Below are positions 15,779 through 40,936 of a stretch of 64,000 bases of DNA, piece by piece. The notes beneath the pieces are model-generated. The model had not been told where the DNA came from. It worked only from the letters and a program-made list of their open reading frames with translations, and searched no databases. Position numbers and translations under genes: made by a program. Numbering within the stretch: position 1 is the first letter of the stretch; the number at the start of each line of letters is the position of its first letter. The stretch spans positions 124,001-188,000 of the forward strand of contig DATENU010000020.1 of assembly GCA_035274845.1 (NCBI GenBank), in the 5' to 3' direction. This DNA is from Chthoniobacterales bacterium (GTDB taxonomy: Bacteria > Verrucomicrobiota > Verrucomicrobiia > Chthoniobacterales > UBA10450).

Positions 15779-17968
15779 TTACCAGTCCTTATAGACACGG
15801 CGCGCAGCCTTGCGTTCATCGAGCTGGACCCGTTGCTCTTCGTCTTTCATCGATTGCAATAAGAGCTGCGCTTGTTTCTCGCTCATCTGGCCTTCTTTCT
15901 CCGGCTCGGCGGGCGCGGCCTCGGCGGTCTGGGGCGGTTGATTTGGCTTTTCTTCGCCTGCTCCCTTTACATCGCCGGATAGTTTCTTTTGCGGCGAGGC
16001 GCTGGCGCTCGCGGAAGGCGAAGCGTTCGGTTGGGTTTCATCTCCGGCGCCCGGCGACGGAGAGGGTGATCCCGACTCGTTGGGGGAAGGGGAAGCCGAC
16101 TCCGAGGGCGACGGAGAGGCGTTCTGGTCATCGCCCGAAGGTGATTTCTGGTCTTTCTCTTGACCTTCGCCTTTGCCCTGGCCGGCTGAGGGGGACGGGC
16201 TGGCTTGATTCTGCTCCTGTTGTTGCTGCTGCCGATCGCCACCCGGTGACGGCGAAGGCGTCTCGCCCGCTTTGGGTTCTTCTTTCTTGTTTTTGTCTTC
16301 GCTCTTTTCGGATTTCTGCTGGTCCTGTTGGTTCTGTTGATCCTGCTTCTTTTGCTCGTCTTTCTGTTGCTGATCCTTTTGTTGCTGATCTTTCTGCTGT
16401 TGGTCCTTCGGTTGATCTTTCTGCTGCTTGTCTTTCTGGGATTGGGGAGGAGGCGACGGTTTTTTCGGAGGCTCTTGTTTCAGGCGCTCAATCTTCTTTT
16501 TTACTTCCTCCAGATTGGCCTTCGCCCGTTCATCCTTCGGATCAATTTTGAGCGCCTCCTCGTAATGCGACTGCGCATTCTGCAAGTCCCCCAGAGCCTT
16601 CTCATTCGATTGCGCGCGATCCGCACGCTCTTCCAAAGTCCGGCCGATGTTATAATGGCTTTTCTCCTGGAGCGTTTTGTCTTTGGAAAGCAACGAGCGA
16701 CTGAACCACTCCAGGGCTTTGTTGAAGTCCCCCATTTTGTAGGCGGCCGCCCCGGCATCGAACTCAATTTTGTCGGCCGCGTGGGTGTTCGGATGTTCTT
16801 TTAGCGTCTTCTCAAATTCCTGGTAGGCCTCGGTGTATTTGTCGTTACGGTATGCGTCCAGGCCCGGCGACGCGGCCAGGGATGTCCCAGCGAGGATCAG
16901 CAAGAGCGCCGCTGCCGCTAGCGCTCGCTTGGGCTCCACTCGGGAAACCGACGGCGCCCGCACTCGTTTTCGTTCTCGCACCAGGTAAGAAAGCGTTAGA
17001 GCAATGAGCGCGGCGGCAAGCGGCCATTGATATCGCTCGATCGGTCGCCGCGACATCCGGTCGTCAATCTCGCCCGTCTGCATCTTCGCTAATCCCTCGC
17101 TGAAGAGCGTCTTCATCGTTCGCGGCCCATCTTCCAGGTGAATATAGAAGCCGCCCGTGGCCTCCGCGATTTCCTTGAGGCGGCTTTCGTCCAGTCTGGA
17201 TTTGACGACCTGTCCGTTGCTGTCTTTGACGAACGCGTTCCCTCCGCCCTCGCCGTTAATCGGAATGAGCGAGCCTTCCGGCGTGCCCACTCCGACCGTG
17301 AAGATCCGCACTCCCGCATCGGCGGCGCTCCTGGCCGTCTTGACCGCGTCGCCGCTCAATTCTTCGCCGTCAGTGAAAATAATCATCGCGCGATTGCCGA
17401 TCGCACTTTTCCCGAACGTTCCCACCGCCAGGTCGATCGCGGCCGAAATGTTTGTTCCGCCTTCCGGAATTGTATTCGTATCGAGATCGTTGATCGCCTC
17501 GACCGCGGCGCTGTAATCAATTGTCAGCGGCGCCTGGAGAAAGCTGCGTCCCGCGAAGGCCACCAGGCCGACGCGATCGCCCTGGAGTTCGTTGAGCAGA
17601 TCCTGCATCGCCAGTTTCACCCGCTGGAGACGGCTCGGAGGCACGTCGTTCGAAAGCATGCTGCGCGACGTGTCGGCGGCGAAGATCAGGTCCAGGCCCT
17701 TGCGCTTAACATCCTCGTAAATGTAACCCCAGCGCGGTTCCGCCAGCGCCGTGACCAGGAAAGCAACCCCCAGCAGGACGAGAGCAAAGCGAAGCTTGCG
17801 GCGCCGCCGGTCCACCGTGCGGGCGAGATCGGGCAGCAGCCGCTCCGACACGAACTCGCGGAGCCGGACCACGGCCCGCCGTTCGCCGCGAGCGAAAATG
17901 ATCGCTAAAAATGGGACGACGAGCAGAGCCCAGAACCATTGTGGCGCGCCGAAGCTCATACGGTCCAC
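15779..17968 (-). CDS. batB: BatB-BatC fusion: VWA domain, TPRs and a long low-complexity linker
   Basis: 729 residues, about twice the size of BatB. Two N-terminal membrane helices (11-26, 61-77) lead to a von Willebrand A domain with an intact MIDAS (D-T-S-R-S, 99-103), a third helix, and then a second hydrophobic stretch before a TPR region (about 370-500). A 180-residue linker follows, first rich in Gln/Lys/Asp, then in Ser/Pro, and the end (about 693-729) resembles the BatC tail. Separate BatB and BatC proteins are the rule elsewhere. The chosen start is GTG at 17968, because GGAGG lies six bases upstream; an ATG three codons later is possible. That Shine-Dalgarno abuts a palindromic repeat. 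Confidence 0.88.
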   Translation of the reverse strand: MDRMSFGAPQWFWALLVVPFLAIIFARGERRAVVRLREFVSERLLPDLARTVDRRRRKLRFALVLLGVAFLVTALAEPRWGYIYEDVKRKGLDLIFAADTSRSMLSNDVPPSRLQRVKLAMQDLLNELQGDRVGLVAFAGRSFLQAPLTIDYSAAVEAINDLDTNTIPEGGTNISAAIDLAVGTFGKSAIGNRAMIIFTDGEELSGDAVKTARSAADAGVRIFTVGVGTPEGSLIPINGEGGGNAFVKDSNGQVVKSRLDESRLKEIAEATGGFYIHLEDGPRTMKTLFSEGLAKMQTGEIDDRMSRRPIERYQWPLAAALIALTLSYLVRERKRVRAPSVSRVEPKRALAAAALLLILAGTSLAASPGLDAYRNDKYTEAYQEFEKTLKEHPNTHAADKIEFDAGAAAYKMGDFNKALEWFSRSLLSKDKTLQEKSHYNIGRTLEERADRAQSNEKALGDLQNAQSHYEEALKIDPKDERAKANLEEVKKKIERLKQEPPKKPSPPPQSQKDKQQKDQPKDQQQKDQQQKDQQQKDEQKKQDQQNQQDQQKSEKSEDKNKKEEPKAGETPSPSPGGDRQQQQQEQNQASPSPSAGQGKGEGQEKDQKSPSGDDQNASPSPSESASPSPNESGSPSPSPGAGDETQPNASPSASASASPQKKLSGDVKGAGEEKPNQPPQTAEAAPAEPEKEGQMSEKQAQLLLQSMKDEEQRVQLDERKAARRVYKDW

Positions 17969-20525: not shown

Positions 20526-21512
20526 TCACGGCACCGGCAATCCCGCGAAAATGCGATCGACGATCGTCTCGCTCGTAATCGTCTCGGCTTCGGCTTCGTA
20601 ACTGACGATAATGCGATGCCGCAGGACATCGGTGCCGATGCTCTTCACGTCCTGCGGGGTGACGTAGCCGCGGCCGTTCAGGAAGGCGTGCGCGCGGGCC
20701 GCCAGCGCCAGGTAAATGGTGGCGCGCGGTGAGGCCCCGTAACGAATCAGCCCTTCCAATTTCAAGTTGTAGGAAGCCGGGTCTCGCGTCGCCCAGACAA
20801 CGTCCACGATGTAGTCCTTCACCCGGTCGTCGATGTAGATTTCGTTCACCACCGAACGCGCGGCGATAATCTGTTGCGGATCGACTACCGGTGTGACGTT
20901 CAGGTTCGGTGCGGACGTCGCCATCAAATCCAGAATCAGGCGTTCCTCGGTCTTGTGCGGATATCCGATGTGCAATTTCAGCATGAAGCGGTCGAGTTGC
21001 GCTTCCGGGAGTTGATAGGTTCCCTCCTGTTCGAGCGGATTCTGCGTCGCGAGGACCAGAAAGGGATCGGAAAGTGGATACGTCGTTTCTCCGATGGTCA
21101 CCTGACGCTCCTGCATTGCCTCCAGCAGCGCGCTTTGGACTTTGGCCGGCGCGCGGTTGATTTCGTCGGCCAGGATCAGGTTCGAAAAGAGCGGTCCGAG
21201 CTTGGTCGTAAACTCGCCGGTGCGCGGATTGTAAATGAGGGTGCCGATCAAATCCGCGGGCAACAGGTCGGGAGTAAATTGGAGACGCTGGAAACCGGTT
21301 TGAATGCAGGCGGCCATCGTCTTGACGGTGAGGGTCTTGGCCAGGCCGGGAACGCCTTCGAGCAGGATATGGCCGTTGGCGAGCAAACCGAGCAAAAGCC
21401 GGTCAACCAGGTATTTCTGGCCGATCACGACGTGACCGATTTGCTCGCGCAGCGGTGAAATCCATTGGCCTAATTCCTGAACCTGCTGCGTGATTTCCTG
21501 CGTCGATTTCAT
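20526..21512 (-). CDS. MoxR-family AAA+ ATPase
   Basis: 328 residues from ATG 21512; the frame is open 14 codons further up. Walker A reads G-V-P-G-L-A-K-T and Walker B L-A-D-E-I-N-R-A, followed by the MoxR-typical sequence L-L-E-A-M-Q-E-R-Q-V. The lid region has R-Y-G-A-S-P-R-A. MoxR proteins are chaperone-like ATPases that act on VWA proteins, here most likely those of the DUF58, BatA and BatB genes that follow. It is the first gene of the operon, with about 140 bp to the divergent neighbour. Confidence 0.92.
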   Translation of the reverse strand: MKSTQEITQQVQELGQWISPLREQIGHVVIGQKYLVDRLLLGLLANGHILLEGVPGLAKTLTVKTMAACIQTGFQRLQFTPDLLPADLIGTLIYNPRTGEFTTKLGPLFSNLILADEINRAPAKVQSALLEAMQERQVTIGETTYPLSDPFLVLATQNPLEQEGTYQLPEAQLDRFMLKLHIGYPHKTEERLILDLMATSAPNLNVTPVVDPQQIIAARSVVNEIYIDDRVKDYIVDVVWATRDPASYNLKLEGLIRYGASPRATIYLALAARAHAFLNGRGYVTPQDVKSIGTDVLRHRIIVSYEAEAETITSETIVDRIFAGLPVP

Positions 21513-21651
21513 AAGAAGAGTGAGACAGGTACGGCGGGAAGATCGTTCGATCAAACTCAGCCTGACGGGACGTGCTCCCTTGCGCCCCTGATTTCTGCCG
21601 GCTTGGCATGGGCGGCGCAGCGATTAGTCAATTGGAACCTGACGAGAAAGC

Positions 21652-22581
21652 TTGAATTTCGACGAGGCGATTAGGCAGAATCGCGCTCGCAGTATGACTC
21701 CTCAGAAACGCGCCTCGCGCCAAGCGCATTCTCCTCAAGCGCAGCCGGGCTCGATCACGGCGCGCTGGGACGCGGCAATCATCCTGTATGCGCTGATTGC
21801 GCTGGTTAGCTTCGCGTGCGGCGTAGCTCTGCTCGGGCTCATGGTATGGAAAGCGGACCGGTTAGTTTCTCTCGGGCTTACTGGGAATCTCTATTACATC
21901 GTTTTGCTGCCGCTCGGCCTCAGCGCTGCCGCATTTCTGTTCGGAGTTCTGAAGTCGTACGCTCGGTTTCGCGGGCGGTACTTCAACGGCGTTCTCGAAC
22001 TTGGCGGTCCGGTGGTCGGCTTCGCGCTTGTGGTCATCGGCGGCTTTGTTCTCGTGAAGAGTCCGGACACATTTCCTCTCACCGTCTTTGTGCACGGAGA
22101 TGCTGGCCGACAGGATGTGGCACTGCGAAACTCCGGACACGTCGTCCTGGACCTGGGACCTGACCGGCGGCGCGAACCAATCGGCGAGAATGGACAGGCC
22201 TATTTTCCTGCCGTTCCCGCAGCGTTTCGCGGACAGCCAGTACTTGCGTCGGTTGAGTCTGATTCGTACGAGCCAGTCAAACCGGGCGAGATGCAGCGAC
22301 TTGATAGCTCGCGCATCTACCTCCCCGTTCGCAAGAAATCAGCTGTGATCTCGGGACGTGTGCAAGACCGAGACGGTAACCCGATCCCAGGCGCGAGCCT
22401 GTCAATCGCTGGTATCTCAGCGACCAGCGACGCCGCAGGACGATTCGAGTTTGCGCTTCCAGGTCCGCGCGTGAAGCCGGAGCTAGAGTTGTACACCACT
22501 GCCAGTGGCTATAAGCCCACCAGTCACATAGTCACTGCGGGGAAAAATGAAATTACGGTCGTTCTCACAGCTGCGCCATGA
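21652..22581 (+). CDS. Membrane protein with a carboxypeptidase-regulatory-like domain
   Basis: 309 residues from TTG 21652 (GAGAAAG upstream), or 295 from ATG 21694. Three hydrophobic helices (about 42-65, 78-98 and 116-136) are followed by an extracytoplasmic part whose last 80 residues (I-S-G-R-V-Q-D-R-D-G-N-P-I-P-G-A) look like a carboxypeptidase regulatory (Ig-like) domain. The last codons overlap the start of the TPR gene by ATGA, so the two are co-translated. I see no enzyme motif. Such domains usually bind surface or protein ligands. Confidence 0.72.
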   Translation: MNFDEAIRQNRARSMTPQKRASRQAHSPQAQPGSITARWDAAIILYALIALVSFACGVALLGLMVWKADRLVSLGLTGNLYYIVLLPLGLSAAAFLFGVLKSYARFRGRYFNGVLELGGPVVGFALVVIGGFVLVKSPDTFPLTVFVHGDAGRQDVALRNSGHVVLDLGPDRRREPIGENGQAYFPAVPAAFRGQPVLASVESDSYEPVKPGEMQRLDSSRIYLPVRKKSAVISGRVQDRDGNPIPGASLSIAGISATSDAAGRFEFALPGPRVKPELELYTTASGYKPTSHIVTAGKNEITVVLTAAP

Positions 22582-24770
22582 AGACGGTGTACCGCCGTTT
22601 GTACCTCGGATTTCTTTTGCTCACGGCGGCTACGGCGGAAGGCGCTGTGCTTAAAGGCATCGTCATCGAGAATGAGCTTGGCGGCCCGCCTCTGGAGAAT
22701 GTTGAAATCAGCGCTGCCAGTGGAGGTAACCCGACCGTGTCGCATAGCAACGGCGCCTTCGCTCTGGAATTCCCGAGTTTTCATCCAGGGGACAGGGTTC
22801 GCGTCGTCGTTAAGAAAAGTGGGCACGTCGTCGTCAACGACGTCCAATTGGAACAGGCGCTTCCCGCAAATCCTGACGCTACTCCGTTGACCATTCTCCT
22901 CTGCAAAGAAGGGGTTCGTGAAGAGATGGCAAGCCGCTTCTATCGCTTGAAGTCCCTCGAAGCGATCCGCCAACGGTATGAAGAGGAGCTGGCGAAGCTG
23001 CAGGAACAGCAGCACGAGAACGTTGAAGCGCTTTCACGGCTCGCCCAAGAGCGTCATCGAGCGATTGCCGCAGCCCAGACCACGGCTGAGCAACTCGCTA
23101 AGGTTAACCCGGAAGAAAGCTCGCAGCTTTATCGCGAAGCGATGCGGCTCTTCCTCGAAGGAAAGATCGACCGAGCGCTCAACGTCCTCGATGAGGAGAA
23201 GCTGCGCCGTGCGACGACCGCTGTCGCTAAGAAAAGAGAAGAAGCCGACAAGCAGCTCGCCGAGCTGGTCCAAGCATGGCTACTCAAAGCGCAACTTCTC
23301 ACTACGCAGTTCCGTTTCAAAGAGGCTGAGGACACGCATGCCAGTGCGCTTTCTGCCGCCCCGGAAAGCTTTGAGGCGAATTTCGCGTTTGCTCTGTTTA
23401 ACCACGAGCTAAACCGCTTCGACAAAGCGAATGAAGCCTACGCGCGCGCCCTTGGTATTGCGCAGCGACAGGAGACTGTCTCGAAGGTGGCGATGACGCT
23501 GAACAATCTCGGCGTTCTGCACCGCGCCCAGAATCGGATGGAGGAGGCGCGCAAGGCCCACGAAGAATCGCTTAAGATTCGCCGTGCGCTGGCGGAGAAG
23601 AACCCCGATACCTATCTCCCGGACGTGGCGAAGACGCTGAACAATCTCGGCGTCCTACACCGCGAGCAGAATCGGATGGAGGAGGCGCGCAAGGCCTACG
23701 AAGAATCGCTCAAGATTCGCCGCGCACTGGCGGAGAAGAACCCCGATACCTATCTCCCGGATGTAGCGAACACGCTGAACAATCTCGGCGTTCTGCACAG
23801 CGACCAGAATCGGATGGAGGAGGCGCGCAAGGCCTATGAAGAAGCGCTCAAGAGCTACCGCGCACTGGCGGAGAAGAACTCCGATACCTATCTCCCGGAT
23901 GTAGCGATGACGCTGAACAATCTCGGCGTTCTGCACCGCGCCCAGAATCGGATGGAGGAGGCGCGCAATGCCTACGAAGAATCGCTCAGGAGCTACCGCG
24001 CACTGGCGGAGAAGAACCCCGATGCCTATCTGCCGGATGTGGCGATGACGCTGAACAATCTCGGCAACCTGCACAGCGACCAGAATCGGATGGAGGAGGC
24101 GCGCAAGACCTACGAAGAATCGCTCAAGATTGGCCGCGCGCTGGCGAAGAAGAACCCCGATACGTATCTGCCGGATGTGGCGAAGACGCTGAACAATCTC
24201 GGCGTCCTGCACCGTGACCAGAATCGGATGGAGGAGGCGCGCAAAGCCTACGAAGAATCGCTCAAGATTCGCCGCGCACTGGCGGAGAAGAACCCCGATA
24301 CCTATCTGCCGTATGTGGCGAACACGCTGAACAATCTCGGCGTTCTGCACCGCGCCCAGAACCGGATGGAGGAGGCGCGCAAGGCCTACGAAGAATCGCT
24401 CAGGAGCTACCGCGCACTGGCGGAGAAGAACCCCGATACCTATCTGCCGGATGTGGCGATGACGCTGAACAATCTCGGCGTTCTGGACCGCGACCAGAAT
24501 CGGATGGAGGAGGCGCGCAAGGCCTACGAAGAAGCGCTCAAGAGCTATCGCGCGCTAGCGGAGAAGAACCCCGACACTTATCTGCCGGATGTGGCGATGA
24601 CGCTGAACAATCTTGGCAATCTGCGCCGCGATCAGAATCGAAAGGAGGAGGCACGCAAGGCTTTCATTGAGGCCTTGGACATCTACACGAGATTTGCGAA
24701 AAGGGACCCCGACCAGTACTCAAGTCGCGCCGCGCTGGTGAAAAACAACCTGGAGGCGCTTGGGCATTGA
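22578..24770 (+). CDS. TPR protein with nine near-identical 46-residue repeats
   Basis: 730 residues. A signal-peptide-like start (1-20) leads to a carboxypeptidase-regulatory-like domain (V-L-K-G-I-V-I-E-N near 25 to about 105), a long coiled coil (about 120-240), a TPR pair (235-300) and nine tandem kinesin-light-chain-type TPR units (304-717), each around T-L-N-N-L-G-V-L-H-R-x-Q-N-R-M-E-E-A-R-K. Units differ at only a few positions. The protein shares its Ig-like domain with the preceding gene, so the pair probably works together at the cell envelope, but I cannot name the partner or the process. A short tail follows the repeats. Confidence 0.82.
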   Translation: MKTVYRRLYLGFLLLTAATAEGAVLKGIVIENELGGPPLENVEISAASGGNPTVSHSNGAFALEFPSFHPGDRVRVVVKKSGHVVVNDVQLEQALPANPDATPLTILLCKEGVREEMASRFYRLKSLEAIRQRYEEELAKLQEQQHENVEALSRLAQERHRAIAAAQTTAEQLAKVNPEESSQLYREAMRLFLEGKIDRALNVLDEEKLRRATTAVAKKREEADKQLAELVQAWLLKAQLLTTQFRFKEAEDTHASALSAAPESFEANFAFALFNHELNRFDKANEAYARALGIAQRQETVSKVAMTLNNLGVLHRAQNRMEEARKAHEESLKIRRALAEKNPDTYLPDVAKTLNNLGVLHREQNRMEEARKAYEESLKIRRALAEKNPDTYLPDVANTLNNLGVLHSDQNRMEEARKAYEEALKSYRALAEKNSDTYLPDVAMTLNNLGVLHRAQNRMEEARNAYEESLRSYRALAEKNPDAYLPDVAMTLNNLGNLHSDQNRMEEARKTYEESLKIGRALAKKNPDTYLPDVAKTLNNLGVLHRDQNRMEEARKAYEESLKIRRALAEKNPDTYLPYVANTLNNLGVLHRAQNRMEEARKAYEESLRSYRALAEKNPDTYLPDVAMTLNNLGVLDRDQNRMEEARKAYEEALKSYRALAEKNPDTYLPDVAMTLNNLGNLRRDQNRKEEARKAFIEALDIYTRFAKRDPDQYSSRAALVKNNLEALGH
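23487..24728 (+). repeat. Nine tandem 138-bp repeats coding for TPR units
   Basis: Units begin at 23487, 23625, 23763, 23901, 24039, 24177, 24315, 24453 and 24591, each exactly 138 bp. The first eight are nearly identical also at DNA level (for example GAGGAGGCGCGCAAGGCCTA recurs), while the ninth is diverged. High DNA identity points to recent expansion or gene conversion, so copy number probably varies between strains. Confidence 0.95.
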
Positions 24771-24862
24771 CCAAGGTCCGTATTCGAGCATCTACCCGCG
24801 CTTGGAACCTGGACGCGCGGAAGAGCTTCCCTCCGAGGACGCAAGATTGGCGCGCCGAAGTC

Positions 24863-26272
24863 CTAGCGGCCTGAGGGCAGGCCGCTTCCAGATTCGCTCC
24901 TTGCGCGACAGCTCAGAAGAAGGGGCAATCCTGGGTAGGGTTCGGCGGCGCGGATCCGGCGCTCGAGATAGCGCGCGTAGGTATCGCTGAGAAGGCCCGG
25001 TTGATTTACGAACAGAACAAACTTAAGCGCCTCGAGCGTCGCGTCATCTTCGCCCCGGGCCTGGGCGGCATAAAACAGTTTCAAGCGCCGGGTCCCGATC
25101 ATCGGCGGTGGATTTTCTTCGAAAGCCGCGCGCAACAGCCGGTTCAGGACGCCCGTTCCGATGCGCTTGCCGGCAGCGCGCCGAACCCGCGTGATAAGGC
25201 GAAAAAGTTGATCGACGTTTTCGCCGGTCAAGGCGGAGGCCACCAGCACCGGGGCATACTCGAGAAAGAAAAGATCTTCGCGGGACCCCGCGACGATTTG
25301 ATCGATCGCTGCTTTCGCGCCCCGTGGCGGTTTCACCTGGTCCCATTTGTTGAGGACAATCAAACAGGGCTTTTCCGCCTTCTGAATCAGACCGGCGATC
25401 TTCTTGTCCTGGCCGGTCACGCCGCTGGTCAGATCGATCACGAGCACGCAGAGGTCCGCGCGCCGGATTGTGCGTTCGGCGCGCATCACACTGAAGACCT
25501 CGACGGAAGTCGAGTGCTTGCTCCGGGGACGCATCCCGGCGGTGTCGATGAGGAGAAACTTCTCACCCTCGCGTTCGTAAAAAACGTCGACGGCGTCGCG
25601 GGTGGTCCCGGGCAAATTGCTGACGATCGTGCGTTCGTCGCGCAGGATGGAATTGATCAGCGACGACTTGCCGGCGTTCGGCCGACCGACAATCGCGAGA
25701 GCGATCGGATTTTCGATTTTCGAATTTCGATTTTCGATTGGAGAGGCAGGCGACGCGGGAAGGAGCGAGTCGATTGTTTCCAGAAGGCCAGAGATGCCGC
25801 GGCCGTGGGCGGCGCTGATGGGAATGGTCGTGTCAAAACCCAGGCGAAGGAAATCCGTTTCCAGGTTCTCGTGCTTTTCGTGATCGATCTTATTGACGAC
25901 GAGAACGACCGGTCTTTTCGATTTCCGAAGGAGCCGCGCCAGTTCCTGGTCGATCGGGGTGAGTCCGTCCTGCGCGTCCACGACAAAGAGAATCACGTCG
26001 CTCTCCCGCATCGCGGTGTCGGCTGCGGCGCGCACCGGCGCCGTCAATTCGGTTTCCCCCGCGCCGCCAATTCCGCCCGTATCCCACACCGTAAACGGCC
26101 TGTGGCCCTTCCGGCAGGGCGCGGCCAGGCGATCGCGGGTAATGCCCGGCTGATCGTGAACGATGGCGATGTTGCGGCCGGCGAGGCGGTTGAAGAGCGC
26201 CGACTTGCCGACGTTGGGCCTTCCCACGATGGCGACGGTGCCCACGCTGTCCGTGGCAGATTTGGAGTCCAT
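24863..26272 (-). CDS. der: Ribosome assembly GTPase Der (EngA)
   Basis: 469 residues with the two GTPase domains unique to Der. G1 motifs are G-R-P-N-V-G-K-S and G-R-P-N-A-G-K-S; G3 reads D-T-G-G and D-T-A-G; G4 reads N-K-I-D and N-K-W-D. A KH-like domain follows. Der helps mature the 50S subunit and is essential in most bacteria. The linker between the G domains contains I-E-N-R-N-S-K-I-E-N-P, encoded by a TCGAAAA-type repeat at 25710-25740. The last six residues come from a palindromic repeat. It lies 24 bp after pgsA. Confidence 0.95.
   Translation of the reverse strand: MDSKSATDSVGTVAIVGRPNVGKSALFNRLAGRNIAIVHDQPGITRDRLAAPCRKGHRPFTVWDTGGIGGAGETELTAPVRAAADTAMRESDVILFVVDAQDGLTPIDQELARLLRKSKRPVVLVVNKIDHEKHENLETDFLRLGFDTTIPISAAHGRGISGLLETIDSLLPASPASPIENRNSKIENPIALAIVGRPNAGKSSLINSILRDERTIVSNLPGTTRDAVDVFYEREGEKFLLIDTAGMRPRSKHSTSVEVFSVMRAERTIRRADLCVLVIDLTSGVTGQDKKIAGLIQKAEKPCLIVLNKWDQVKPPRGAKAAIDQIVAGSREDLFFLEYAPVLVASALTGENVDQLFRLITRVRRAAGKRIGTGVLNRLLRAAFEENPPPMIGTRRLKLFYAAQARGEDDATLEALKFVLFVNQPGLLSDTYARYLERRIRAAEPYPGLPLLLSCRARSESGSGLPSGR
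24866..24885. repeat. Palindromic repeat, family B, at the der stop codon
   Basis: GCGGCCTGAGGGCAGGCCGC, the same core as at 17978 and 44742. It overlaps the last codons of der, so it supplies the C-terminal residues G-L-P-S-G-R and abuts the TAG stop. It may also act as a hairpin between the convergent TPR gene and der, but there is no T-tract. Confidence 0.85.
25710..25740. repeat. TCGAAAA-type low-complexity repeat within der
   Basis: Four to five overlapping copies of TTTTCGA / TCGAAAA in 31 bp. The tract is far more AT-rich than its surroundings and codes for the linker between the two GTPase domains. It looks like an inserted simple repeat tolerated because the linker is flexible. Confidence 0.6.
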
Positions 26273-28052: not shown

Positions 28053-29591
28053 CTAGAATCCGCTGGTGAGCTGCGGCTTATCGGACGTTCCGAATCGTAG
28101 CCCGCTGACTACAAATAGTTGTTCGCCTGTCGGCGAGTCGCCGAAGTCCTGGCCGAGAGCAAGAGTCAGCCACAGGTTCTCGGCAATTTTCCGTTCGATG
28201 TTACCGCCGAGCCGATAGGCGCTGTCTCTGCCGTGCGCGTCGGACCATGTCCGGAAATAGGCGCCTTCGAACGACGCGTTAAAGTCCGGCGAACCAAAAC
28301 GGAGCCGGGCTCCGACGGTGAAGGTGTCCTGGCGAAAGAATACTTTTGCGTCCGAGGGCTCGGCGACATTCTCGAAGTTTCGATAGCGCGCGTTGACGAT
28401 GAGCTGCGCCTTATTCTCCAACGCTTGCATTCCTTCGAACCCGTATGCGAACGAACTCCAGACGGTCGCTCCGTCCCACTTAAGTTCATTGGCATCGCCC
28501 GTGGCGGTGATCCAGGTCGGAGCAGCGGCGACGATCCAACTGCTTTTCGCCCAGGACTTCTTTCGAATCTCTGCCACCCGGGCCTGGAGATCCTTTTCGT
28601 AAGCGTTGAGGGATTTCGTATATGCGTCCATCTGATCTTGAACTTGGCCAAACGGATTGAGCGGTGGCGGGCGATGATCGACAAAATTCTTAGTGTAAAG
28701 ATTCGCGATGTCCTCGTTGAGTCTGGGGTCGCCGTTATCCCAGAGGGTAATATTAACTCCGGCGGCCAGTCGCAACGCCTTGTCATCGGTCGTGGCCTTG
28801 GCGGTTCCGATCGAAAGCTGGGTGTTATAAAGAATGCGCGTCAGCGGATGATTCTTGTATTCCGGCAAGGTCGTCTCCTGGCCCGCGAGGATTTGGTAAG
28901 GAGCAACGTCGATGGCCACACCGGATTGCAGTTTCCCATCTTTATCTACGCCGTTGAGCAAAGCAGTTCCGAATTCTCGCACCGACGCGGGACGAGTCAC
29001 GGTTTCCGGACTGATGCCCAAAGCCGTGAATGCCGGCGATTCGGGAATTGATCGGTCAAGGTTCCAGTCCTTCAGCTTTGTTTGAAGTTCGACCTGTTTC
29101 TGATCCGCCGCCGGTGGAGGGGAAGAAACAGCGGTTATTTGGTCTGTCGGGGTCTCCGCCTTTTGGACTCCGTTCGCATTCACGGTCGCCAGGGTGGTAG
29201 TGCGCTCCAGGATCGGTTTTGAAAAATTTGCCTTAACCTTTTCGGTCCGATTTTCGATCGGTGTCGAAACTGGCGTGACCGCCGCTACCTTCGCTTGCGA
29301 CGCCGCGAAGACATCGAAATGCCCGGAGCGCGGCGCAATCAGGGATTCCTTGGGAAACGTCCAGACGGCGGTCTCGCCGTCCACCGTCATCGAATATTGA
29401 CCGGTTCCGACGGGATGCCGGTTGAGCGGAATTTTAATCTGGATCTGACCGCTTGAGTTTGAACTGACGTGAACTTGGTCGCCCGCGGCGTCGTAATCAA
29501 TCGAACCGATCGAGTCCGCGGCCCGGATAAGACAAAGCGGCAGGAGACCGGCTGCGAGAGCAAACAGAATCCGTCGGTACGAGGCACTCAT
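28053..29591 (-). CDS. Exported protein with a putative C-terminal beta-barrel
   Basis: 512 residues with a signal peptide (1-24). After a Ser/Thr/Pro-rich middle, the second half shows alternating hydrophobic/polar strands ending in aromatic residues (N-L-W-L-T-L-A-L-G-Q-D-F and L-F-V-V-S-G-L-R-F-G), and the protein ends in phenylalanine, as outer membrane barrels often do. I cannot assign a family. It overlaps the preceding 129-aa gene by ATGA. Confidence 0.62.
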   Translation of the reverse strand: MSASYRRILFALAAGLLPLCLIRAADSIGSIDYDAAGDQVHVSSNSSGQIQIKIPLNRHPVGTGQYSMTVDGETAVWTFPKESLIAPRSGHFDVFAASQAKVAAVTPVSTPIENRTEKVKANFSKPILERTTTLATVNANGVQKAETPTDQITAVSSPPPAADQKQVELQTKLKDWNLDRSIPESPAFTALGISPETVTRPASVREFGTALLNGVDKDGKLQSGVAIDVAPYQILAGQETTLPEYKNHPLTRILYNTQLSIGTAKATTDDKALRLAAGVNITLWDNGDPRLNEDIANLYTKNFVDHRPPPLNPFGQVQDQMDAYTKSLNAYEKDLQARVAEIRKKSWAKSSWIVAAAPTWITATGDANELKWDGATVWSSFAYGFEGMQALENKAQLIVNARYRNFENVAEPSDAKVFFRQDTFTVGARLRFGSPDFNASFEGAYFRTWSDAHGRDSAYRLGGNIERKIAENLWLTLALGQDFGDSPTGEQLFVVSGLRFGTSDKPQLTSGF

Positions 29592-40133: not shown

Positions 40134-40224
40134 TGTAGCGGCGGTCTCTGACCGTCGAAAGCGCTCGCTTCACAACGACGGTCAGAGACCGCCGCTACAA
40201 CGACGGTCAGAGACCGCCGCTACA
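40134..40224. repeat. Palindromic repeat family C, three copies
   Basis: TGTAGCGGCGGTCTCTGACC(GTCG) at 40134-40157, its exact inverse at 40176-40199, and a further copy of the inverse at 40201-40224. The first two form a hairpin with perfect 24-bp arms. The set fills the space between the convergent pssA and nucleotidyltransferase genes and ends one base before the latter's stop codon. Confidence 0.92.
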
Positions 40225-40225
40225 G

Positions 40226-40936
40226 CTACGGTTTTGCATTTAGTCGCGCCAGGATCTCAGGGTCCCTTACATCGGCCCAATCTCCCGATAACTCGAGCGC
40301 CCGAACTTTCTTCCCGGCCAGCGCGAGATTGCGGATCGCGTCGGTGAGCTCGTATTCGCCGCGCGGCGAACGCTCGAGCTTCGCAATGTGATCGAAGATA
40401 CTCGATCGAAAGACATACACCCCGGCGTTGTACCAGGGACTGGTCGGCTCTCCGGGTTTCGGTTTCTCACGCAGATCGACGAGGTGGAATTCTTCATTCA
40501 CGAAAACAGCGCCGCCCTGGCTGACGTCGTCGCTCCGCTTCACGCTGACCACTGCTTCGGCGTCCGCTAGTGCCGCGCAAATCCGCGAATAATTTTGCGG
40601 CGCCACAAGAATGTCGCCGTAACTCAGGACAAACGGTTCGCTGCCGACAAACGGACGCGCCAATTCAACGACCTTGCCGGTCCCGTTCTGCGCCTCCTGA
40701 GTGGTGTAATCGATGCGCACTCCGAGCTTCGAACCGTTCTGGAAAAATTCGCGCACGACCTCTGCGCGCCAGCCGACGACGATCAATAAGTCAATCAGGC
40801 CCGCATCGCGCAGCCCTTCGACGATATGCTGCAGGACCGGCTTGCCGCGCACCTCGAGCATCGGCTTGGGGAGCGCTTCCGTGAGCTCACGCATTCTGGT
40901 CCCGCGGCCGGCGGCTAATAGAACGGCCTTGTTCAT
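40226..40936 (-). CDS. Sugar-phosphate nucleotidyltransferase
   Basis: 236 residues. The nucleotide-binding signature L-A-A-G-R-G-T-R-M-R-E and L-P-K-P-M-L-E-V at the start and the G-D aspartate in L-S-Y-G-D-I-L-V define a nucleotidyltransferase that makes an NDP-sugar from NTP and sugar-1-phosphate, in the RmlA/GlmU-N/GCD1 fold. There is no C-terminal acyltransferase or beta-helix part. The sugar cannot be told from the sequence; W-Y-N-A-G-V-Y-V-F is the usual substrate loop. It lies alone between two repeat clusters. Confidence 0.88.
   Translation of the reverse strand: MNKAVLLAAGRGTRMRELTEALPKPMLEVRGKPVLQHIVEGLRDAGLIDLLIVVGWRAEVVREFFQNGSKLGVRIDYTTQEAQNGTGKVVELARPFVGSEPFVLSYGDILVAPQNYSRICAALADAEAVVSVKRSDDVSQGGAVFVNEEFHLVDLREKPKPGEPTSPWYNAGVYVFRSSIFDHIAKLERSPRGEYELTDAIRNLALAGKKVRALELSGDWADVRDPEILARLNAKP

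Follow-up and report, generated by a model that had tools for sequence, protein, structure and literature searches.

The question raised by this locus is what two overlapping genes, standing between der and moxR, might do for the cell and how they came to be there. The window, i.e., the whole stretch of 64,000 nucleotides analyzed in this study, belongs to a genome of 4.54 Mb assembled in 24 contigs. The list of open reading frames (ORFs) placed gene 1 at 21652 (TTG)–22581 (+, 309 aa) and gene 2 at 22578 (ATG)–24770 (+, 730 aa), with an overlap of ATGA. The pair is flanked by a gene encoding a moxR-type AAA ATPase on the left (20526–21512, −; AAA_3, E 3.8e-63) and by der (EngA), encoding a GTPase with two MMR_HSR1 domains and a KH_dom-like domain, on the right (24863–26272, −), both of which lie outside the pair. 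The ATGA overlap and the orientation opposite to both neighbors, as given in the original prediction, were borne out by these coordinates.

The genes der and moxR were found on the same strand and 44–167 bp apart in all six sister genomes in which Der was matched over its full length (from seven other genomes of the genus, with G007 excluded for having no such match), and 3350 bp apart in the window. This adjacency in the sister genomes marks the pair as inserted DNA of about 3.2 kb. The inserted interval spans approximately 21565–24840 (no strand), with edges that were estimated by eye from the intergenic sequence and are uncertain by tens of bases. The G+C content of the pair showed no difference from that of its surroundings. 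No sigma-70-like promoter was found in 21450–24950, and terminator-like sites in the same region were about as numerous as in shuffled sequences. Elsewhere in the window, we found a low-complexity Q/K/D-rich tandem repeat (16352–16438) in the vWA-TPR gene of the moxR operon, a 512-aa ORF (28053–29591, −) for which Pfam gave no match at E 1e-5, and a short tandem repeat of 25 bp in 2.4 copies (40172–40232).

The pair has a narrow distribution. Gene 1 was identified in one of the eight genomes of the genus, and the non-repeat part of gene 2 in four of the 83 genomes of the family, namely the window's own and G053, G072, and G078 (another genus), indicating that the pair is accessory. Among 213 genomes of the order, gene 1 was present only in the window's own genome and in G053. 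The 384 genomes searched in the class yielded its own copy and one short match, and the 387 searched in the phylum yielded six matched genomes, with a full-length match only in the window's own. A scan of genome contigs added five loci with matches in the C-terminal half, mainly in the CarboxypepD_reg part; the occurrence of gene 1 beyond the bacterial family was thus not supported, since the outside matches were short or mainly confined to this part. For the non-repeat part of gene 2, 16 of the 387 phylum genomes were matched, and apart from the own copy these matches were short and limited to the final third of the profile. No match to gene 1 was found on the plasmids searched, one weak TPR match to gene 2 was found on a Prosthecochloris plasmid, and no match to the non-repeat part of gene 2 was found in the viral contigs searched. 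G078 carries gene 2 without an adjacent gene 1, and the pairing is therefore not obligatory.

Gene 1 contained three hydrophobic segments by hydropathy (residues 34–52, 82–100, and 117–135), in agreement with the three-helix membrane protein originally proposed. Its N-terminus is positively charged, and the K+R counts of successive loops (6/2/4/3) fit an N-terminus inside and a C-terminus outside. A CarboxypepD_reg domain was identified in the C-terminal part (residues about 231–307; PF13620, E 8.7e-10, 39.3 bits against a cut-off of 32.3), and the structure model of the protein was poor (pLDDT 47). Pfam identified no TIR domain in gene 1, including the N-terminal TIR_2 that characterizes TIR-TM (transmembrane) receptor-like proteins, and a tblastn search of the window gave no TIR match below E 0.2. 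Additionally, gene 1 had no match among the known anti-phage systems of PADLOC 2.0.0.

Gene 2 encodes, in order, a signal-peptide-like start, a predicted beta region, long helices, and nine TPR units. The signal-peptide-like start was recognized by eye in all three gene 2 copies that include the start, and the product is probably a secreted binding protein. AlphaFold2 modeled the TPR part with a pLDDT of about 80–95 and the N-terminal part with low values, where seven strands were predicted at low confidence (residues 27–107). Gene 2 matched PF13715 below the cut-off (14.6 bits against 32.2, E 0.035) and the CarboxypepD_reg domain of gene 1 with 29% identity (E 0.011). The claim that both proteins share a carboxypeptidase-regulatory-like domain therefore holds above the gathering score for gene 1 only; for gene 2, these similarities make the same domain plausible. 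The repeats were assigned to TPR_12 (E 1.7e-90, 297.7 bits against a cut-off of 30.1) and TPR_10 (251.4 bits against 27.5). The nearest solved TPRs by sequence were those of kinesin light chains (E 9.6e-26), with the bacterial kinesin light chain ranked lower, and the leading fold matches included SPINDLY, LGN, and kinesin light chain TPRs. PADLOC 2.0.0 matched gene 2 solely to its generic TPR model (E 7.9e-9) and to no specific anti-phage family.

The array begins at residue 304 and consists, as predicted, of nine units, each of exactly 46 aa or 138 bp. Units 1–8 (23487–24590, +) shared 87–96% DNA and 78–96% protein identity in pairwise comparisons, with synonymous differences (pS) of 0.06–0.28, and unit 9 (24591–24728, +) is a diverged cap unit with 62–66% DNA identity to the others. 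The description of eight units as almost identical was thus too strong, and their recent expansion needs to be qualified, since this moderate synonymous divergence indicates an expansion that is not very young. With these corrections, the observation made on the gene pair is confirmed as real. A duplication of a block of four units is suggested, not firmly, by the identity at an offset of four units (92.6%; P 0.029 over all orders, as the best of five offsets and uncorrected). An antisense frame of 231 aa (23655–24350, −) spans the array and most likely results from the periodicity of the repeats; the G078 array contains a comparable frame of 153 aa (L022, 3805–4266).

Comparison with relatives did not reveal a constant repeat number with slow divergence. 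We counted nine units in the window, seven in G078, and six in G072, the latter two being drafts of about 370 and 410 contigs in which repeat counts may be wrong. In the unit tree, the window units and those of the other genus separated with a support of 1.000, a pattern that amplification or conversion within each lineage would produce. G078 and G072 shared 98.4% identity over 1414 bp of gene 2 and were one unit apart. Their copies showed one synonymous and no nonsynonymous differences in the 209 codons before the TPRs, and one synonymous and eight nonsynonymous differences (nine bases) in the 230 codons of units 1–5. The eight nonsynonymous differences fall in seven codons (7 of 230 versus 0 of 209, Fisher p 0.016). 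Seven of the nine differing bases were present at the same place in another unit, which indicates exchange between units or, equally, misassembly. These sequence comparisons show an array that turns over.

Variation within the units is concentrated at positions of the TPR groove. Passages of Magliery and Regan (PMC1261162) describe TPR positions 2, 5, 9, 12, 13, 33, and 34 as the most variable and as exposed on the concave face. With position 1 of Pfam TPR_1 at residue 351, the helix-A positions correspond to unit positions 3, 6, 10, 13, and 14. The summed entropy of TPR positions 2, 5, 9, 12, and 13 exceeded that of random sets of five positions in window units 1–8 (P 0.0036) and in G078 units 1–6 (P 0.0029), and none of the 45 cyclic register shifts equaled it in either array. 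When positions 33 and 34 were added, the signal was weaker in the window (P 0.024, with one of 45 shifts equaling it; P 0.007 and none of 45 in G078), and simple counts of variable sites gave p 0.043 and 0.085. The pN/pS ratio was 0.74 in the groove versus 0.29 elsewhere among the window units, and 4.0 versus 0.51 among those of G078, where synonymous sites are very few. This pattern is normal for TPRs with different ligands; it singles out the groove as the part that changes and, on its own, is no proof of positive selection. Together with the predicted topology and the unit turnover, the concentration of variation in the groove supports the original view of an envelope pair with a fast-changing binding protein.

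A possible link to signaling was found in G053 (L021), in which a relative of gene 1 precedes a gene 2 that is cut by the contig end. The TM region of this relative shared 67–68% identity with that of window gene 1 over about 101–104 residues, and its C-terminal part is a CarboxypepD_reg domain (E 8.7e-8). The second half of a TIR_2 domain lies before the TM helices, which are the same three as in the window; it scored below the Pfam cut-off (E 1.4e-4) and was 79% identical to an intact TIR of G078 over 86 residues, and a TIR start motif was found just upstream in another frame. The homologous TM region thus occurs in a TIR-bearing relative, whose TIR is interrupted. The coding sequence is interrupted twice, with changes of frame, so that its start, its TIR-TM part, and its C-terminal part stand apart, indicating that this copy is broken (perhaps a pseudogene) or misassembled in the draft. 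The TIR link to the pair was seen in this one genome only. The two gene 1 copies fit either a gain of the TIR by the lineage of G053 or its loss from that of the window.

A divergent patatin gene adjoins the gene 1 relative of G053 and is 45% identical to the patatin of L057, which was tested with Pfam. In L056, L057, and L058, from the same genus as G053, intact TIR genes adjoin relatives of this patatin, and in L057, L058, L059, and also L061 (another genus), intact TIR genes adjoin an exported Peptidase_M15_4-type gene; Pfam was run on L057 only for these neighbors, and the TIR and TM parts of L058 lie in two overlapping frames. L057 (4623–10518) and L058 (1588–7665) are conflict-type loci, with a divergent patatin, a TIR-TM gene, an exported Peptidase_M15_4-type protein, and a SLOG protein (LSDAT_prok). 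The TIR-TM gene of L057 has a YARHG tail, and this locus also contains a TPR-S protein, with a similar-looking ORF in L058.

The TIR-TM piece of G053 matched 20 of the 83 family genomes. A TIR-start ORF was found by motif in 25 of the 30 loci fetched, the five without it including those of the window and of G053 itself. A TM segment followed after residue 110 in 22 of these 25 ORFs, and a tail of at least 100 residues followed the TM segment in 20 of the 22. In these counts, it is doubtful whether the L050 ORF is the one matched, and the end of the locus truncates some tails. Pfam named a C-terminal domain in nine of 20 distinct TIR proteins, i.e., YARHG (two), SBP_bac_3 (two), WD40 (two), SH3_3 (two, one below the cut-off), or TPR (one). 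SBP_bac_3, SH3, and YARHG are domains found on the outside of cells, and a layout with the TIR inside and the sensor outside is therefore likely. The G053 pair would be a split version of this layout. The window genome holds six further matches to the G053 TIR-TM piece besides the window's, so that signaling in trans appears possible from the gene content.

Several members of this family were noted in their own right. L037 (with the same protein in L068, G002) and L049 (G003) encode TIR_2, one membrane helix, and a periplasmic SBP_bac_3 solute-binding-type domain, and L052 (G055) encodes TIR_2, a TM segment, and TPRs in a single polypeptide, a fused counterpart of the split arrangement. About 40–58 kb before the window start, a run of large ORFs (L024, G000:C20:66000-84000) contains candidate conflict proteins with a TIR-like, NB-ARC/TPR, or CHAT-like appearance on visual inspection. 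In a limited paper collection, we found no paper joining TIR with YARHG or with SBP_bac_3, and none on a carboxypeptidase regulatory-like domain together with a tetratricopeptide, or on a membrane TIR.

These results suggest, with a probability that we place a little short of even, that the two genes form a sensing module of the envelope, either mobile or accessory, as a split receptor related to TIR receptors from which the TIR is absent here. They might represent the sensor side of a transmembrane alarm receptor, with the signaling part missing at this locus. We infer that gene 1 would serve as an inner-membrane anchor with its N-terminus inside and its C-terminal CarboxypepD_reg beta-sandwich outside, on which the exported gene 2 product would dock via its N-terminal beta domain or its helical stalk. 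The groove of the TPR superhelix would bind a protein or peptide ligand, and units would be gained, lost, and exchanged through recombination. We propose that such recombination, together with changes collecting at the groove, shifts specificity quickly. In the ancestral arrangement, as G053 suggests, the signal would probably pass via the gene 1 helices to a cytoplasmic TIR; the TIR-free copy in the window could act as a decoy, a trap, or a co-receptor, or through one of the other TIR-TM proteins of the genome. The more specific proposal, in which G053 carries a real split transmembrane TIR receptor whose exported TPR sensor triggers a cytoplasmic TIR and the window carries a TIR-free decoy or co-receptor, is rather unlikely.

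A pair with no immune role is somewhat unlikely as well, in which gene 1 would anchor a secreted TPR protein that organizes cell-wall or polymer machinery, as a scaffold or adhesin, and unequal crossing-over of the ordinary kind would change the copy number, with no selection favoring new ligands. CarboxypepD_reg and TPR domains are frequent in envelope proteins, and the lack of a TIR in window gene 1, the retention of gene 2 without gene 1 in G078, and the purely generic PADLOC match all agree with such a role. However, the insertion is species-restricted and very rare (gene 1 in two of 213 order genomes), unlike housekeeping scaffolds, and both the joining of TIR sequence to the corresponding TM region of G053 and the groove-biased change argue against it. 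The same absence of the TIR in the window, its interruption in G053, and the missing gene 1 beside G078 gene 2 could also indicate the decaying remnant of a TIR-TM and TPR system, deprived of its TIR in the window lineage and now without function. We consider this improbable, because both window frames are fully open and overlap translationally, the pN/pS between the window TPR units is as low as 0.29 outside the groove, and the part before the TPRs has a dN/dS of 0.30 when G078 and G053 are compared.

The variation in unit number and the exchange between units might, finally, be artefacts of draft assembly over a stable array. The fragmentation of G078 and G072, the 138-bp length of the units, and the predominance of differences that match bases of other units are in line with this explanation. 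Nevertheless, the window genome is assembled in few contigs and its array is lineage-specific in the unit tree, for which misassembly in G078 and G072 alone offers no ready explanation, and we regard an artefact as highly improbable.

A sensing module in the envelope can be compared with several known systems. TPR and TIR are described as common parts of conflict systems of the vWA-MoxR type (Kaur et al. 2020, PMC7159879); the passages on them mention no membrane TIR protein with an exported TPR protein as its partner. The pair resembles these systems in adjoining a moxR-type gene and vWA genes, but the moxR operon here contains BatA-type vWA genes and DUF58, and moxR occurred without the pair in all six sister genomes compared, so that the pair is not its constant partner. 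Kinesin light chain-type TPRs (TPR_12/TPR_10, including BklC) are the solved structures most similar to gene 2 in sequence and rank among the most similar in fold; unlike them, gene 2 has units of 46 residues that are highly alike and is predicted to be exported, and no connection with tubulin or kinesin was noticed. In architecture, the G053 gene 1 relative, with its TIR sequence, TM helices, and C-terminal domain, resembles the unnamed TIR_2-TM-tail proteins of the same bacterial family, other members of which have TPR, WD40, SBP_bac_3, SH3, or YARHG tails. Window gene 1 differs from these proteins in lacking a TIR and in having three helices, where one is usual, and its TPR sensor is a separate protein.

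Most described bacterial TIR defense proteins respond to cues inside the cell. If the proposed arrangement is true, a TIR would be joined through the membrane to outside sensors, making the sensing of external attack via TIR receptors directly testable. Animal Toll-like receptors combine a repeat-built sensor outside, a membrane helix, and a TIR inside, and the same elements would recur here if the G053 arrangement is real. The domain order is opposite, the sensor lies on a separate chain, and the window copy has no TIR; we do not propose that the arrangement in its entirety shares descent with them. A split transmembrane TIR receptor triggered by an exported TPR protein with a fast-changing groove would be, in logic, a bacterial counterpart to Toll-like receptors.
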